Positions 36,040 through 47,067 of a DNA stretch of 47,244 bases are shown one piece after another (positions within the stretch are counted from its first letter, which is position 1; the number at the start of each line of letters is the position of its first letter). The DNA comes from Cytophagaceae bacterium. GTDB taxonomy: Bacteria; Bacteroidota; Bacteroidia; Cytophagales; Cytophagaceae. A program made the translations under genes and the position numbers. The DNA is taken from assembly GCA_025455005.1 (NCBI GenBank), contig JALONH010000024.1, positions 1 to 47,244 on the forward strand. The letters run 5' to 3'. The notes under the pieces are model-generated. The model did no database searches. It had not been told where the DNA came from and was given only the letters and a program-made list of their open reading frames with translations.

Positions 36040-36127
36040 CTGGTTTATAAAGATGAAGGGAGAGACTAGGCTCTGTGAACTTCAGGCAACCGATATAAAA
36101 AGTATAATGGTGCCCCTACCTAACCAG
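36040..36127 (+). promoter_or_regulatory. SAM-clan riboswitch (SAM-I/SAM-IV-like, compact form)
   Basis: Helix P1 is CTGGTT (36040-36045) with AACCAG (36122-36127). Inside lies the conserved core: AAAGATGAAGGGA, GGCTCTGTGAACTTC, AGGCAACC, a short P3 (ATAT/GTAT), then GGTGCCCCTACC. The order and the key GGCAACC and GGTGCC blocks match the SAM-I clan. There is no clear P4 helix before P1 closes, as in SAM-IV and the SAM-I/IV variants. It sits 30 bases before a 77-codon ORF and not before a known methionine gene. A UUCG hairpin (36028-36043) uses bases of P1, suggesting an alternative fold. No intrinsic terminator follows, so control may be translational. Confidence 0.75.
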
Positions 36128-36157
36128 TATTTATTGGAACTATAAACTTCTACGCTC

Positions 36158-40543: not shown

Positions 40544-40579
40544 AAAAAAAGTCCCGGAATAGTTTATTCCGGGACTTTT
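40544..40579 (-). terminator. Strong terminator of the tRNA-like RNA
   Basis: An eleven-base-pair stem (40551-40561 with 40565-40575, arms GTCCCGGAATA/TATTCCGGGAC) with a three-base loop, extended by A/T pairs, is followed on the minus strand by seven T. It begins right after the tRNA-like 3' end. Confidence 0.88.
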
Positions 40580-40580
40580 G

Positions 40581-40734
40581 CTGTAAGGGGGGGATTCGAA
40601 CCAACCCACGGGGAAGTTAGCTGCAGCACACGGATTAGTGGTCAACCCTAGCTTGTGAGCATTATGCTGCGTTTATCCTTTGACCCCCACCCCCGAGACA
40701 GGAGGGCACGTCTGCCAATTTCGTCACCTTACAG
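40581..40734 (-). ncRNA. Large tRNA-like structured RNA with an extra ~70-nt domain
   Basis: Read on the minus strand, the ends pair perfectly over 8 bp (CTGTAAGG/CCTTACAG). The next block, ACGAAATTGGCAGACGT (40724-40708), is a type II (Leu-like) D arm preceded by T8-G9. A stem CCCTC/GGGGG (40706-40702, 40694-40690) closes a seven-base loop CTGTCTC. Near the 3' end TTCGAAT (40600-40594) is a standard T loop, but its stem GGGTTGG/CCCCCCC has two T-C mismatches. Between them are about 80 extra bases with nested stems GCAGCA/TGCTGC and GGGTT/AATCC. At 154 nt it is far longer than any tRNA, has no Leu anticodon and no CCA. It has its own promoter and terminator. I cannot name a known family. Confidence 0.6.
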
Positions 40735-40761: not shown

Positions 40762-40794
40762 CAAATGTACATAAACCTGATATAAAATTACAAA
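40762..40794 (-). promoter_or_regulatory. Promoter of the tRNA-like RNA (TTTG-N21-TACATTTG)
   Basis: On the minus strand TTTG (40794-40791) and TACATTTG (40769-40762) are 21 bases apart, a full match to the Bacteroidota consensus. Transcription would start near 40755, about 20 bases before the tRNA-like 5' end. Confidence 0.75.
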
Positions 40795-40879: not shown

Positions 40880-41362
40880 ATGCCTACTCATTTAGAAATT
40901 GACAATACCGATCGTCAAATACTTCAACTTTTATTAGAGGACGCCACTCTCCCCTATACTGAAATTGCCAAACGACTGGGAGTGTCGGGTGGAACCATAC
41001 ATGTACGAATGAATAAACTCGTTGATTCAGGCATTGTAAAAGGCACACACATAGAAATAGACTATGCAAAAATTGGATACGATATTACTGCCTTTTTAGG
41101 TATCTATTTAGAAAAATCAGAATACTACGACCAAGCAGCCAGAGCCCTTGAACGCATTCCGGAAGTCGTCATGGTACATTACACAACAGGTAATTATTCT
41201 ATGTTCGTAAAAATTATCTGTCGGGATACCAATCATTTACGCGATGTATTACACGATAAAATTCAAAAAGTAGAAGGTATTCAACGGACTGAAACTATGA
41301 TTTCATTGGAAGAATCGATACAACGGCGTTTACACCTTGACCTCTTAGAACCTAAAAAGTAA
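40880..41362 (+). CDS. Lrp/AsnC-family transcriptional regulator
   Basis: A 160-residue regulator: an N-terminal winged helix (DRQILQLLLEDATLPYTEIAKRL, then SGGTIHVRMNKL) and a C-terminal RAM/AsnC domain (IPEVVMVHYTTGNYSMFVKI) that binds amino acids and assembles octamers. Lrp-type proteins control amino-acid metabolism genes; the effector cannot be read. It lies between the tRNA-like RNA (divergent) and the suf operon, 110 bases before sufB, with no visible terminator between. It could regulate either neighbour, but this is inference. Confidence 0.9.
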   Translation: MPTHLEIDNTDRQILQLLLEDATLPYTEIAKRLGVSGGTIHVRMNKLVDSGIVKGTHIEIDYAKIGYDITAFLGIYLEKSEYYDQAARALERIPEVVMVHYTTGNYSMFVKIICRDTNHLRDVLHDKIQKVEGIQRTETMISLEESIQRRLHLDLLEPKK

Positions 41363-41472: not shown

Positions 41473-42918
41473 ATGAGCGACAGCAATAAAGTGTTAGAAG
41501 AAATAACAAGTTCGGAATACAAGTGGGGATTTGTTTCCAATATTGATTCTGAAAATGCTCCTATGGGGCTTAATGAGGATATTGTCCGTTATATTTCTTC
41601 CAAAAAAAATGAGCCGGAATGGTTATTAGAATGGAGATTAAAAGCTTACCGTCATTGGTTAACATTGGAAGAACCGAAATGGCAAAATGTTACTTTCCCC
41701 TCCATTAACTATCAAGACATCATTTATTATTCTGCTCCAAAGCAAAAGATAAACCCTAAAAGTTTAGATGAAATAGACCCGGAACTTCGGGCTACATTTG
41801 AAAAATTAGGCATCTCCCTTGATGAACAAAAAAGATTAACGGGAGTAGCAGTGGATGCGGTTATAGATTCTGTTTCCATTACCACTACGTTCAAAGATAA
41901 ACTATCAGAGTTAGGTATTATCTTCTGCTCCTTAAGTGAGGCTGTACACGATCATCCTGAACTGGTAAAAAAATACATAGGCAGTGTGGTTCCCATTACC
42001 GATAACTATTTTGCCGCTCTTAACTCAGCCGTATTCAGCGATGGCTCCTTCTGTTATATTCCTAAAGGTGTTCGGTGTCCAATGGAATTATCAACCTATT
42101 TCAGAATTAACGCTGCTAACACCGGACAATTTGAACGTACTTTAATCATAGCCGATGATTCTAGTTATGTAAGTTACCTTGAAGGGTGTACGGCACCTAT
42201 GCGGGATGAAAATCAATTACATGCTGCTGTGGTTGAATTGATCGCTATGGATCATGCTGAAATCAAATACTCAACAGTTCAAAACTGGTATCCGGGAGAT
42301 AAAAATGGTAAAGGTGGAATTTACAATTTTGTAACCAAACGAGGCATCTGTTCCGGTGCATACTCTAAAATATCTTGGACACAAGTAGAGACAGGTTCTG
42401 CTGTAACTTGGAAGTATCCCAGCTGTATCTTGAAAGGTGATTATTCTATAGGAGAATTTTACTCCGTTGCCGTTACCAATAACTACCAACAAGCAGATAC
42501 CGGTACTAAAATGATTCATTTAGGAAAACACACTAAATCTCGTATCGTTTCCAAAGGTATATCAGCCGGTAAATCTCAAAATTCTTACAGAGGGCTAGTA
42601 AAAGTAGCCAAACGTGCAGAAGGATCACGAAACTTTTCTCAATGTGATTCATTGTTAATGGGCGATCAGTGTGGGGCGCACACCTTTCCTTATATAGAAG
42701 TAGACAACCATCTTTCAACTGTAGAACATGAAGCTACCACTTCTAAAATTGGGGAAGATCAAATATTCTATTGTAATCAAAGAGGTATAGATACCGAAAA
42801 GGCAGTAGCTCTAATTGTCAATGGGTATTGCAAAGAAGTATTAAACCAATTACCTATGGAATTTGCAGTAGAAGCACAAAAGTTACTGGCCATCTCCCTA
42901 GAAGGAAGCGTTGGATAA
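41473..42918 (+). CDS. sufB: Fe-S cluster assembly scaffold SufB
   Basis: SufB is the scaffold subunit on which SufBCD builds [4Fe-4S] clusters. The 481 residues include the family blocks [45 protein letters not shown], the beta-helix core with [19 protein letters not shown], and [17 protein letters not shown]. The C-terminal [19 protein letters not shown] is the usual conserved stretch. It is first in sufBCDSE-DUF59; a 67-base gap with a weak hairpin separates it from sufC. Confidence 0.97.
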
Positions 42919-42997
42919 ACATAAATAAAAAACTACATCTTATATTATAGATGATGTTTTCTTCACACAACAACCATCATCTCCTATGAAACGATCT

Positions 42998-43756
42998 ATG
43001 TTAAGTATAAAAAACCTACAAGCCCGAATAGAAGAAAAAGAAATTCTGAGAGGCATCAATTTAGAAGTAAAACCCGGTGAAGTGCACGCTATCATGGGTC
43101 CAAACGGATCAGGAAAATCGACCTTGGCATCCGTTTTGTCCGGTAGAGAAGATTATGAAGTAACCGGCGGTGATGTTACATTTAATGGAAAAGACTTACT
43201 TGAATTATCTCCGGAGGACCGTGCACGCGAAGGTATATTTTTAGCCTTCCAATATCCGGTAGAAATACCCGGTGTATCTACTATCAACTTCATGAAAACG
43301 GCGGTGAATGAAGTCCGTGAATACAGAGGTCAAGATCCATTAGATGCTGTTTCCTTTTTAAAATTAATGAAGGAGAAAATGAAATTAGTAGAGATCGATG
43401 AGTCTTTATTGAAACGTGCATTAAACGAAGGCTTTTCCGGTGGAGAAAAGAAACGAAATGAAATATTCCAAATGGCCATGTTAGAACCTAAGCTAGCTAT
43501 ATTGGATGAAACTGATTCCGGATTGGATATTGATGCGTTACGTATCGTTGCAAACGGAGTAAATAAATTAAAATCAAAAGATAATGCGGTTATTGTTGTT
43601 ACGCACTATCAACGATTATTAGATTACATTGTTCCGGATTATGTTCATGTATTATATAAAGGAAGAATTGTTAAATCAGGCACAAAAGAATTGGCATTAG
43701 AACTAGAAGAAAAAGGATACGATTGGATTAAAGCTGAGGCTGACGCTGTCGTTTAA
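42998..43756 (+). CDS. sufC: Fe-S cluster assembly ATPase SufC
   Basis: The ABC-type ATPase of the SufBCD complex. Walker A is GPNGSGKST, the signature motif is FSGGEKKRNE, Walker B is LAILDETDSGLD, and the Q loop and a terminal His (VTHYQRLL) are in place. Family members begin at MLSIKNL, so I chose the ATG at 42998; an ATG at 42986 would add four residues. It has no membrane partner, as expected for Suf. Twelve bases separate it from sufD. Confidence 0.96.
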   Translation: MLSIKNLQARIEEKEILRGINLEVKPGEVHAIMGPNGSGKSTLASVLSGREDYEVTGGDVTFNGKDLLELSPEDRAREGIFLAFQYPVEIPGVSTINFMKTAVNEVREYRGQDPLDAVSFLKLMKEKMKLVEIDESLLKRALNEGFSGGEKKRNEIFQMAMLEPKLAILDETDSGLDIDALRIVANGVNKLKSKDNAVIVVTHYQRLLDYIVPDYVHVLYKGRIVKSGTKELALELEEKGYDWIKAEADAVV

Positions 43757-43768
43757 ACATTTCTTGAT

Positions 43769-45022
43769 ATGGAATTAAAAGATACTATTCTTCAACACTA
43801 CCGTGAGCAAACCTCTGATGTTATAGCAGATGTTCGTCAAGATGCTTTAAATACATTTAATCAAATTGGCTTCCCTACTATCAAACACGAAGAGTGGAAA
43901 TACACTAATTTAAAACAAAGTTTAACTAAGCCTTACGCTATTCAACCTGCTGCCACTTTATCCAAAGCAGCTATACAAGAGGTTCTAGACACTTTACCTA
44001 AAGGTATCTTCCTTGTATTTGTTAACGGTATATTTCAACCTGAACTATCCGATAAAAATCTACAAGGTGCTGAAGTCAATTCTTTTGCCGAAAAAGTGGA
44101 TGTCGTACAACGATACTTTGGCAAAAATTTGCCTTTTACAGACAGTATGCAATCCCTTAATATTGCCTTTGCACAACAAGGTACTTTTATTCGCATACCC
44201 AAAAACGTATCCATTGAAGCGCCTCTGTTTTGTGTTTTCTTAACAGATACTCAAACGGAGAATGTCTTTGTTCAACCTTCGCTCTTCATCCTTTTAGAAG
44301 ATGGAGCTCAAGCTACCATAGCAGAAAGTTATCATACGATTGGAACGAACACTTCCTTTACCAATCTATTTTCGCATATTCTTTTACAAAAGGATGCTTA
44401 TTTGGATGCCTATAAAATCCAAAATGATGTCGTTTCTGCTGTACAAATTAATACCACTCAATTGGTACACGAATCCAAATGTACTAGTCATACAACAACG
44501 ATAACTTTAGGTGGAGGGATCACTCGAAATAACTTATCGATTTCACTTCAATCAGAGCATAATGAAGCTTATTTAAATGGCTTATATGTAACTCAAGGTA
44601 CGATGCACGTAGACAATCATACCTTAGTAGACCATGCAATGCCAAATTGTTATAGCAACGAATTATATAAAGGAATATTAAACGACACCTCTTCCGGTGT
44701 ATTTAATGGCAAAATATGGGTTCGGAAAGACGCTCAAAAAACCAATGCCTTCCAATCCAATAAAAATGTATTAATGTCCAAAGAAGCTTCTGTTAATACA
44801 AAACCACAACTGGAAATCTTTGCAGACGATGTCAAGTGTTCACATGGAGCTACAACAGGTCAACTGGATGAACAAGCCTTATATTATTTAAGAGCGAGAG
44901 GCATTGGCGAAGAAAGTGCTAAAAAATTATTGGTGCATGCTTTTGCCTTTGATGTAGTTGATAAGATAAAAAATAGTGTAATCAAAGAATATTTGATCGA
45001 AGCACTGGAAGCAAAATTATAA
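43769..45022 (+). CDS. sufD: Fe-S cluster assembly protein SufD
   Basis: The partner of SufB in the scaffold heterodimer. The 417 residues show the N-terminal HEEWKYTNLK block, the central beta helix (SLFILLEDGAQATIAESYH), and the C-terminal CSHGATTGQLDEQALYYLRARG, which is the most conserved SufB/SufD motif with its Cys-Ser-His. Its sequence is less conserved than SufB, which is usual. It is 27 bases before sufS. Confidence 0.93.
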   Translation: MELKDTILQHYREQTSDVIADVRQDALNTFNQIGFPTIKHEEWKYTNLKQSLTKPYAIQPAATLSKAAIQEVLDTLPKGIFLVFVNGIFQPELSDKNLQGAEVNSFAEKVDVVQRYFGKNLPFTDSMQSLNIAFAQQGTFIRIPKNVSIEAPLFCVFLTDTQTENVFVQPSLFILLEDGAQATIAESYHTIGTNTSFTNLFSHILLQKDAYLDAYKIQNDVVSAVQINTTQLVHESKCTSHTTTITLGGGITRNNLSISLQSEHNEAYLNGLYVTQGTMHVDNHTLVDHAMPNCYSNELYKGILNDTSSGVFNGKIWVRKDAQKTNAFQSNKNVLMSKEASVNTKPQLEIFADDVKCSHGATTGQLDEQALYYLRARGIGEESAKKLLVHAFAFDVVDKIKNSVIKEYLIEALEAKL

Positions 45023-45049
45023 AAGTAACCTTTAATAGTAACCGTTGAT

Positions 45050-46306
45050 ATGTTGGATATAGCGCGAGATTTTCTTTTAGCAAACGGTCAACTTGACGTA
45101 GAACGTATCCGTGAGGATTTCCCCATATTACACCAAGAGGTGAATGGTAAACCGTTTGTTTATTTTGATAATGCGGCGACTACTCAAAAACCAATTCAAG
45201 TTATTGAAGCCCTCACCCACTATTATTTAACGGATAACTCTAATATTCATAGAGGTATCCACACCTTAGCTGAGAGAGCTACTGCAGCTTTTGAAGCCAC
45301 TCGAGATAAAGTTAAATCCTTTCTTAATGCGGCTGAAAGGGAGGAAATTATTTTTACACGGGGCACAACAGAAAGTATTAATCTAGTTGCCGCAACTTGG
45401 GGTAACCAATACATAGAAGCCGGTGACGAAATTGTGGTTTCGGCTATGGAACACCATTCGAACATGGTACCCTGGCATATGTTGGCACAACGGAAAAAAG
45501 CTAAAGTAAAAATCATTCCAATGAATGATGCCGGCGAACTGCTTTTAGATAATTTGGAAAACATTATCACATCCAAAACTAAATTGGTCGCTTGCGTTCA
45601 TGTTTCAAACGCGTTAGGAACAATCAATCCTATAGCTAGTCTAATTAATGCAGCAAAAAAAGTGGGTGCCGTTACCCTGATCGATGGAGCTCAAGCTGTA
45701 TCTCACTTAGATATCGATGTACAATCATTAGGTGCTGATTTTTATGTCTTTTCCGGTCACAAACTCTATGGCCCAACCGGAGTAGGTGTGTTGTATGGTA
45801 AACGTAGCTTATTAGAAGCAATGCCTCCGTATCAAGGTGGTGGTGAAATGATAAGTGAAGTAACCTACGAAGGTTGCACGTACAATGAATTGCCTTATAA
45901 ATTTGAAGCCGGTACTCCTAATATAGCGGATGTCGTCGCCTTAGGTTCAGCGATTGAGTATGTACTCACCATAGGAAAAAAAAATATTCGACAGCACGAA
46001 ACTATTCTTTTGGATTACGCCACTAAAAAAGCACTTGAAGTACCAGGTCTACAATGTATCGGTACAGCGGCGGATAAAGTAGGTGTACTTTCCTTTGTAT
46101 TTTCAGATGTACATCCGCAAGATATCGGAATCTTACTGGATAAAAGTGGAATAGCCATTCGAACGGGACACCATTGTACACAACCTTTGATGGGACGTTT
46201 AGGCATTCCGGGAACTTCTCGAATGTCCTTTGCGGTTTATAATACTATAGAAGAAATAGATTTAGCAATAGAGGCGTTGTATAAAGCCTTACGACTATTA
46301 CGATAA
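45050..46306 (+). CDS. sufS: Cysteine desulfurase SufS
   Basis: A class V PLP enzyme that takes sulfur from cysteine as a persulfide for cluster assembly. YFDNAATTQKP, EHHSNMVPW, and FSGHKLYGPTGVGVLYG with the PLP Lys are visible, and the active-site Cys is in RTGHHCTQPLM on a short loop, as in type II (SufS) enzymes. At 418 residues its length is normal. SufE, encoded one base further on, accepts the sulfur. Confidence 0.96.
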   Translation: MLDIARDFLLANGQLDVERIREDFPILHQEVNGKPFVYFDNAATTQKPIQVIEALTHYYLTDNSNIHRGIHTLAERATAAFEATRDKVKSFLNAAEREEIIFTRGTTESINLVAATWGNQYIEAGDEIVVSAMEHHSNMVPWHMLAQRKKAKVKIIPMNDAGELLLDNLENIITSKTKLVACVHVSNALGTINPIASLINAAKKVGAVTLIDGAQAVSHLDIDVQSLGADFYVFSGHKLYGPTGVGVLYGKRSLLEAMPPYQGGGEMISEVTYEGCTYNELPYKFEAGTPNIADVVALGSAIEYVLTIGKKNIRQHETILLDYATKKALEVPGLQCIGTAADKVGVLSFVFSDVHPQDIGILLDKSGIAIRTGHHCTQPLMGRLGIPGTSRMSFAVYNTIEEIDLAIEALYKALRLLR

Positions 46307-46307
46307 T

Positions 46308-46730
46308 ATGAATACAATTAATGCCATACAGGATCAAATCATTGAAGATTTCGAGCTATTGGATGAATGGGACGATAAGTATGCTTATATCATTGAACTA
46401 GGGAAGAAACTGCCTGCTATAGAGGAGATTTACAAAACTGACACATATAAAATCAAAGGATGCCAGTCTCAGGTTTGGATGCATAGTACACTTCAAAATG
46501 GTAAAATATATTTCACCGGTGACAGTGATGCCTTAATAGTAAAAGGGTTAGTGGCGTTGTTGATTAAAATATTAAATGGTCAACCCGCAACAGATGTAGC
46601 TACCTGCGATTTGTATTTTATAGATAAAATTGGAATGAAACAACATTTATCCATGACGCGCTCAAATGGTTTAGCGAGTATGGTGAAGCAAATGAAATTA
46701 TTTGCACTGGCTTATCAAACACAATCGTAA
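46308..46730 (+). CDS. sufE: Sulfur acceptor SufE
   Basis: A 140-residue SufE protein that takes the persulfide from SufS and stimulates it. The acceptor Cys lies in YKIKGCQSQVWM. The opening IIEDFELLDEWDDKYAYIIELGKKLP and the closing RSNGLASMVKQM are typical. It follows sufS with a one-base gap and is followed 7 bases later by the DUF59 gene. Confidence 0.94.
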   Translation: MNTINAIQDQIIEDFELLDEWDDKYAYIIELGKKLPAIEEIYKTDTYKIKGCQSQVWMHSTLQNGKIYFTGDSDALIVKGLVALLIKILNGQPATDVATCDLYFIDKIGMKQHLSMTRSNGLASMVKQMKLFALAYQTQS

Positions 46731-46737
46731 TGCAACT

Positions 46738-47067
46738 ATGAGTGACGGTACTCTAAATGAAATGGAAGAATTAAAAAAAAAGATTGTAGATCAAATTCAA
46801 ACCGTATTTGATCCTGAAATACCGGTAAATATTTATGAGTTAGGTTTGATTTATGAAGTAAGTATATTTCCGGTCAACAATGTTTTTATTCAGATGACGT
46901 TGACCTCTCCTAACTGCCCGGCAGCACAATCCTTACCGGCAGAAGTAGAACAAAAAGCTAAATCTGTAGAAGGAGTACAAGAGGTTACGGTAGAAGTTAC
47001 GTTTGACCCGCCGTGGAATCAAGAAATGATGAGCGATGCTGCAAAGCTGGAATTAGGTTTCATGTGA
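46738..47067 (+). CDS. DUF59/MIP18-family Fe-S assembly protein (SufT-like)
   Basis: A 109-residue DUF59 protein with the motifs FDPEIPVNIYELGLIYEV and TLTSPNCPAAQSLP, whose Cys is thought to bind or pass Fe-S clusters, and FDPPWNQEMM. In many Bacteroidota it ends the suf operon and helps maturation of Fe-S proteins. I chose the ATG at 46738; an earlier ATG at 46702 lies inside sufE. Ends 84 bases before the 7-mer repeat array; the gap in between has no strong terminator. Confidence 0.9.
   Translation: MSDGTLNEMEELKKKIVDQIQTVFDPEIPVNIYELGLIYEVSIFPVNNVFIQMTLTSPNCPAAQSLPAEVEQKAKSVEGVQEVTVEVTFDPPWNQEMMSDAAKLELGFM

Follow-up and report, generated by a model that had tools for sequence, protein, structure and literature searches.

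The 47,244 nt stretch of Cytophagaceae bacterium DNA that we analysed (contig JALONH010000024.1; hereafter the window) carries, on its minus strand at positions 40733-40580, a 154 nt gene for a tRNA-like RNA which, as read from the sequence, has a promoter and a terminator of its own. That this RNA belongs to a real, conserved and new class is in our view practically certain, and the finding adds a class with a near-complete tRNA fold that was overlooked by Rfam 15 and ARAGORN. Based on sequence comparisons, we propose that the RNA is a non-decoding tRNA mimic that would be charged with aspartate by AspRS and amidated by GatCAB, under the control of an AsnC-type regulator, and we put the probability of this reading at roughly one half (0.48).

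The RNA extends from U1 to C74 (40580-40733, minus strand, like all of its parts described here), as defined by the sequence, by covariation and by a covariance-model match of 132.3 bits. Its acceptor stem comprises seven pairs, UGUAAGG (40727-40733) with CCUUACA (40588-40582), followed by G73 and C74, the latter also being encoded by 25 listed tRNAs of the same genome. A preliminary description had placed the gene at 40581-40734 and closed it with eight pairs; seven of these stand, whereas the eighth (C-1 with G73) is not conserved, the base at -1 being A or T in several relatives, and 40733-40580 are the better bounds. The D arm (40708-40724) has three pairs and the loop AAATTGGCAGA, which is like the D loop of the organism's own tRNA-Leu genes. 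It is followed by an anticodon-like arm (40689-40707), with a stem of five pairs extended by a G-U pair and the loop CUGUCUC (40701-40695), an assignment that draws on the loop counts in host copies given below. The variable loop is replaced by a 79 nt variable-arm domain (40610-40688), defined by alignment and covariation and laid out as a four-pair V stem, a three-pair stem, an internal loop (GAUAAA, 40677-40672, opposite CUAA, 40620-40617) and then a variable hairpin. The T arm (40589-40607), with its UUCGAAU loop, is a sequence reading. The D arm, the seven-base loop with GUC, the large insert and the TTCGAAT loop had all been noticed before and can be read directly. The mismatches reported earlier in the T stem are indeed present in the window copy, but they are atypical, all five pairs being formed in 27 of 36 aligned relatives. 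The GGGTT/AATCC stem once suggested within the insert is not conserved: the motif GGGTTGACCAC (40638-40648) recurs in relatives, and AATCC does not. GACCAC, the core of GGGTTGACCAC, is found in 54/139 distinct host copies and 56/60 distinct phage copies.

The promoter TTTG-N21-TACATTTG (40762-40794, minus strand) was read from the sequence exactly as previously claimed, with TTTG at 40794-40791, 21 intervening bases and TACATTTG at 40769-40762; we take it to be the Bacteroidota-type consensus. Among host copies that differ in their upstream DNA, 71/143 have TANNTTTG within 120 bases upstream, where shuffles lead one to expect 10.2. On the other side of the gene lies an intrinsic terminator (40547-40579, minus strand), described earlier with an 11-bp stem and now seen to have 15 pairs when A-U pairs are counted. 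By a criterion of our own, applied without a shuffle control, 99/142 host copies are followed by a terminator-like hairpin and a T run. Upstream of phage copies the host promoter motif is not clearly enriched (6/59, with 3.4 expected), and terminators are few (3/59).

Rfam 15 at gathering cut-offs did not call the RNA, its sole matches in the window being a SAM riboswitch and a tRNA-His at other positions, and ARAGORN, run on the window, called it neither as tRNA nor as tmRNA. A permissive Rfam scan of the window (E up to 10) gave no tRNA or tmRNA match at the RNA, the weak matches at the locus falling mostly on the terminator hairpin, and ten relatives scanned at E up to 1 gave no tRNA or tmRNA match either. 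On the strength of these scans we rejected an ordinary tRNA, a pseudogene, tmRNA and any Rfam family, and the earlier statement that the RNA is not tmRNA holds. We found no description of it in the literature searched, a search whose scope excluded subscription papers and bioRxiv. The SAM riboswitch (RF00162, 69.2 bits, 36042-36148, plus strand) is unrelated; small reading frames follow it from 36454.

The folding energy of the window RNA is nothing unusual (z = -0.59), and that of four relatives is at most mildly so (z = -0.07, -1.76, -1.89 and -0.64). The support beyond chance is covariation and not single-sequence folding energy. BLASTN matches at E<1e-5 were present in 41 of the 59 genomes searched, its own genome included. 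Among 36 diverse copies, in which 35 pairs were counted, 92.4% of the cells are paired, while control structures slid along the alignment give 46 to 54%. Changes on both sides were seen at 25 of the 35 pairs (15.7 in shuffles) and double changes in 181 cells (54.3 in shuffles), and in neither case did any of 500 shuffles reach as high. The preliminary description had proposed a covariance-model search for covarying stems; our model, trained on these 36 copies with their ends trimmed at ACAGC or TCAGC, recovered relatives whose stems do covary. In the resulting alignment of 139 distinct host copies, which is fitted to the model and hence biased towards it, pairing reaches 97.3% over 29 pairs, of which 21 show double changes. 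Covariation helix by helix bears out the tRNA core, that is, the acceptor, D, anticodon and T helices together with the tRNA loop signatures. The variable arm has covarying stems of its own that flank the GAUAAA/CUAA internal loop, and the hairpin above it ranges from a GAAA-capped stub (locus L027, 109 nt in total) to forms of up to 196 nt in total; the domain measures 37 to 121 nt across the family.

These data bear directly on the notion of a decayed tRNA or pseudogene that has taken up an insertion and persists by chance, which had been listed at the outset beside a new RNA class and a tRNA mimic. It would account for the missing ARAGORN call and for the imperfect T stem of the window copy, but compensatory changes and an occurrence that spans families and phages refute it, and we give it a negligible chance. 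A new class or tRNA mimic, in contrast, is what the wide conservation, the covariation and the missing Rfam match argue for. An anti-Shine-Dalgarno role of the CCUCCU in the anticodon-like stem was likewise dropped because that stem varies with compensation.

In 118 genomes sampled from the organism's own order, the covariance model (E<=1e-17) detected the RNA in 86, which have as many as six copies each; one genome (G032), whose copy is interrupted by contig ends (L028, L070), is for that reason scored as negative, and another (G030) as positive on a 77-nt form. A phylum-wide sample of 395 genomes gave strong matches also in three families of the same class (f23, f24 and f27) and in one family outside it (f67). 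Matches of 50 to 60 bits and ~84 nt in that sample were not counted, their length and score indicating that they are cross-matches to ordinary tRNA-Leu-type genes. A pattern scan of genomes, in which the pattern fixes U35, C36, Y37 and C38, matched at least 119 stretches. Among 80 titles listed, one reads just "bacterium" and the rest name organisms that we take to be Bacteroidota, including Hymenobacter, Dyadobacter, Spirosoma, Algoriphagus, Saprospiraceae and a Chitinophaga MAG. A plasmid search with the window copy gave no match at E<=0.01. Tandem arrays are frequent, with up to 6 copies; neighbours within an array sometimes differ in their insert domains (L025, L018, L347, L349), and one array (L025) mixes long and short forms. 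The 77-nt relative in G030 (L372, 138-214, minus strand) lacks the variable-arm domain; it keeps U1-A72, the loop CTATCTC and G73-C74, and is followed by a terminator-like hairpin. Its existence suggests that what matters is the tRNA core.

Since the scan pattern predetermines several loop positions, we limited the loop statistics to the 139 distinct host copies that BLAST or the model had located at 99 loci; 150 of the 151 model matches were aligned, the weakest, the 77-nt form, being left out. Position 33 is free (T105 G16 C12 A6), position 34 is mostly G (G120 A10 T5 C4), and position 37 is a pyrimidine in 138/139 copies (T125 C13 G1). U35 and C36 are invariant (139/139 each), as are U1-A72, G2-C71 and the G73-C74 end, and C38 is present in 138/139; G10 is not kept. 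Decoding tRNAs have U33 and a purine at 37, a feature of elongator tRNAs that the RNA lacks, and we conclude that it very probably takes no part in decoding. A true decoding tRNA-Asp whose variable arm is oversized would explain the complete tRNA core, G34-U35-C36 in 120/139 host copies and the existence of a 77-nt form without the domain. However, position 33 is not U in 34/139 copies and 37 is almost always a pyrimidine, AUC, UUC and CUC are also seen at 34-36, and the genome encodes an ordinary tRNA-Asp besides, which leaves a decoding tRNA-Asp very improbable.

The positions that are kept are of another kind. Strong aspartate determinants, as given in PMC9976931, are G73, G34, U35, C36 and C38; the same source describes G1-C72 and G2-C71 as crucial pairs that bacterial tRNA-Asp strictly conserves and one of the two as a minor determinant, whereas for the amidation of Asp-tRNA-Asn U1-A72 is a determinant and G1-C72 and U20a are antideterminants. 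Set against our loop counts, this means that the loop keeps the positions read by AspRS and drops those needed by the ribosome, and that the acceptor gains the amidation mark U1-A72 and thereby loses G1-C72, a pair favoured by AspRS. We see an even chance that AspRS charges the RNA, judging by these identity positions. Charging may be weak, given that G34 is replaced in 19/139 copies, G10 is lost and G1-C72 has become U1-A72. A glutamate identity was rejected, because the pairs and A37 in the GluRS set listed in PMC9976931 (G1-C72, U2-A71, U34, A37) are missing and U34 occurs in just 5/139 host copies. So was charging with leucine, the RNA having G73 where the same source lists A73 for leucine tRNAs.

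The presence of GatCAB, scored by gatA alone, follows that of the RNA. The organism's own genome has gatA (555 bits). In the order sample, gatA was found in 85 of the 86 RNA-positive genomes (84 over the cut-off, and G052 with the gene in two pieces), the exception, G501, having a paralogue only, and in 19 of the 32 without the RNA (18 over the cut-off and a truncated one at 480 bits against a cut-off of 481; Fisher, 6e-8, ignoring shared ancestry). Among 72 individually listed genomes of the same class, a count that leaves aside 29 more without an RNA match, gatA was present in 23/23 with the RNA (E<1e-125) and in 3/49 without it (Fisher, 7e-16, again ignoring shared ancestry). In families f9, f15, f20, f23 and f24 both are missing from some members and present in others: within one genus of f9 (g215), G458 and G481 have both and G493 and G505 neither, and neither is found in G484 (f15), G486 (f20; 83% complete), G060 and G177 (f23), or G075 and G170 (f24). 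Outside the class many genomes have gatA and no strong RNA match, which is expected where GatCAB serves ordinary tRNAs.

We also looked for synthetases in 30 genomes, which were hand-chosen, nine of them for missing both RNA and gatA, and so provide no independent test of the co-occurrence. Among the 21 RNA-positive genomes, GlnRS passes its cut-off in 15 and AsnRS in 20, and those 15 have both synthetases; therefore, GatCAB is not needed in those 15 for charging tRNA-Gln or tRNA-Asn. The nine without RNA and gatA have GlnRS in eight cases and AsnRS in all nine. In the organism's own family (f1: G000, G001, G004 and G012) GlnRS was over the cut-off in 0/4 genomes, as against 15/17 of the other RNA-positive genomes checked, and tRNA-Gln probably depends on GatCAB there in any case. 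Homologues of asparagine synthetase B are over the cut-off in 28/30 genomes, with 465 bits in the organism's own, which should therefore have no need of asparagine made on the RNA; across these genomes such asparagine would not be the sole source. PMC4206432 counts 49 bacterial genera in which AsnRS and GlnRS occur together with asparagine synthetase and GatCAB, suggests that these make asparagine in a tRNA-dependent way, and states that in delta-proteobacteria of this kind GatCAB may be vestigial. Since gatA tracks the RNA in the Bacteroidota class sampled, the RNA may be the missing GatCAB substrate; that GatCAB would then amidate the aspartate on it has, to our mind, a little less than an even chance.

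The commonest neighbour of the RNA is a gene for an AsnC-type regulator, which in the window is divergent from it (40880-41362, plus strand; 160 aa; Pfam PF01037 and PF13404). The protein is closer to E. coli AsnC than to Lrp (45% against 23% identity), and E. coli AsnC is also its best relative of solved structure. In a first pass, its cluster was present at 14/18 loci. Among 123 named-contig copies with at least 900 nt upstream, 67 have a divergent AsnC homologue within 2.5 kb, 62 of these at 121 to 279 nt, and 56 have none; the count takes tandem copies separately and, where only 900 to 2500 nt lie upstream, may miss a distant gene. Among the 44 places clustered for host copies without the homologue, no neighbour family recurs at more than eight, and none of the 80 phage stretches examined has an AsnC homologue at E<=1e-5. 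From these varied neighbours and the AsnC-less phage copies it follows that the RNA is able to act in trans. The asnC gene of E. coli K-12 is separated by 151 bp from its divergent neighbour asnA, a gene for asparagine synthetase; here it is the RNA that occupies the position of asnA. AsnC activates asnA, and asparagine abolishes the activation, according to PMC4482635. On its other side the AsnC-type gene of the window adjoins a SUF iron-sulfur operon (41473-47067, plus strand; SufB, a SufC-type ABC ATPase, a SufB/D paralogue, a class V aminotransferase and SufE), which also lies near the RNA in several relatives.

A transcription regulator as the commonest neighbour could also speak for a tRNA-like regulatory RNA that is never charged, in which the fold would serve stability and processing, the loop or the variable arm would bind an mRNA, a protein or the ribosome, and AsnC would control transcription only. 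A stand-alone gene with a promoter signature, tandem arrays of up to 6 copies, the fixed UC.C loop and the conserved internal loop of the variable arm all suit such a regulator. It would, however, have no need of invariance at the aspartate identity positions, at G73-C74 and at U1-A72, and it leaves the co-occurrence with gatA aside; we hold it to be somewhat unlikely.

The RNA is also found in viruses. The pattern used on the genomes matched 88 stretches of IMG/VR viral contigs; of 80 examined, 79 gave model matches of at least 79.9 bits, one of them cut at the 3' end, and the remaining one contains a copy cut by the contig end. Neighbouring proteins from ten viral loci matched PHROGs families in 18 of 20 cases, some weakly or to families without an assigned function, with terminase, portal, DNA and RNA ligases and GroEL among those near the RNA, and at least most such loci are therefore phage DNA. 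Cultured phage records, queried with two phage copies, gave no match at E<=0.01. Several phage copies lie among tRNA genes (25 called in each of L266 and L276), and others have no tRNA within the stretch examined. In 60 distinct phage copies, whose loop counts are predetermined by the scan pattern at U35, C36, Y37 and C38, the first pair is U1-A72 in 57 and A1-U72 in three, and G2-C71 and G73 occur in all.

What sets the phage copies apart is the loop of the variable arm. A palindrome of at least 6 bases lies within the 26 bases after GACCAC in 44 of the 47 distinct phage loops that have this motif (shuffle mean 15.4, maximum 24), beginning within 5 bases in 41 of the 44, and one of at least 8 bases in 33 of the 47 (shuffle mean 4.5, maximum 11). 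The sequences vary (GCGCGC, GTGCAC, GCATGC, GCCGGCCGGC, TCCTGCAGGA). Host copies show no clear excess (14/23, shuffle mean 8.5, maximum 15). A hairpin alone needs no palindromic centre in its loop; the simplest interpretation is therefore that two molecules pair with each other, and the varied palindromes suggest that the phage RNAs may form dimers. In copies from large phages (L243, L244, L254, L266, L267, L276, L280) there is an extra, partly palindromic hairpin in the D arm that looks as if it were a second kissing site.

One could take this further and regard the whole class as a homo-oligomeric RNA, like others near phage tRNA islands, with palindromic loops that kiss and a tRNA part that acts as scaffold. 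To our knowledge, the body of GOLLD and ROOL has no tRNA fold. As described in PMC12286853, these phage and bacterial RNAs adjoin tRNA islands and form homo-oligomers, a likeness that, together with the palindrome excess in 47 loops of differing sequence, favours such an interpretation. But they are several times larger, with GOLLD members often >800 nt (PMC12286853), and our RNA has no Rfam match. The excess is not seen in host copies, the shortest host forms lack the region of the phage palindromes altogether, and the shuffles ignore the descent that relates the phage loops. We consider a homo-oligomeric role for the class improbable.

With bacterial tRNA (RF00005) the RNA shares the acceptor, D, anticodon and T arms, U8, G18G19, the UUCGANU loop and G73-C74; it differs in its structured variable-arm domain, the free position 33, the pyrimidine at 37 and the lack of an Rfam tRNA match. 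In its body it is closest to tRNA-Leu and in its identity elements to tRNA-Asp, and among 28 tRNAs of the same genome the 5' half of the family matches tRNA-Leu(GAG) best and then tRNA-Asp. Like the tRNA-Asn of the transamidation pathway (ND-AspRS and GatCAB), it has U1-A72, G73, a proposed charging with aspartate and gatA in the genome, but it has C36 where that tRNA has U36, an extra domain and a loop unsuited to decoding. In tmRNA, tRNA-like ends are joined to another RNA domain, as they are here; unlike tmRNA, the RNA keeps an anticodon-like arm. Use outside decoding is shared with the staphylococcal cell-wall tRNA-Gly, which is non-decoding, of ordinary size and specific for glycine.

For the aspartate-charged, amidated mimic that we prefer, we envisage the following route. 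The transcript would be trimmed as a tRNA is, its G73-C74 end being like that of host tRNAs, and completed with CA. AspRS would load aspartate by way of G73, U35, C36, C38 and usually G34, and U1-A72 would let GatCAB turn the aspartate into asparagine. With positions 33 and 37 ill suited to decoding, the Asx-RNA would act outside codon reading, as an asparagine source or sensor coupled to the AsnC-type regulator; its product might go into free asparagine, to a sensor or to a transferase. The variable-arm domain probably bars the RNA from the ribosome or binds a partner, and in phages its self-complementary loop could allow dimerisation.

The class is common to many Bacteroidota and their viruses. 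A more specific interpretation, which we rate as unlikely, is that of a dedicated RNA cofactor, on which AspRS would load aspartate and GatCAB would amidate it, the asparagine being released or handed on off the ribosome, and whose gene AsnC would control as it does asnA in E. coli. If this cofactor interpretation is true, the phage copies would keep the supply of asparagine, or its reading, under phage control.
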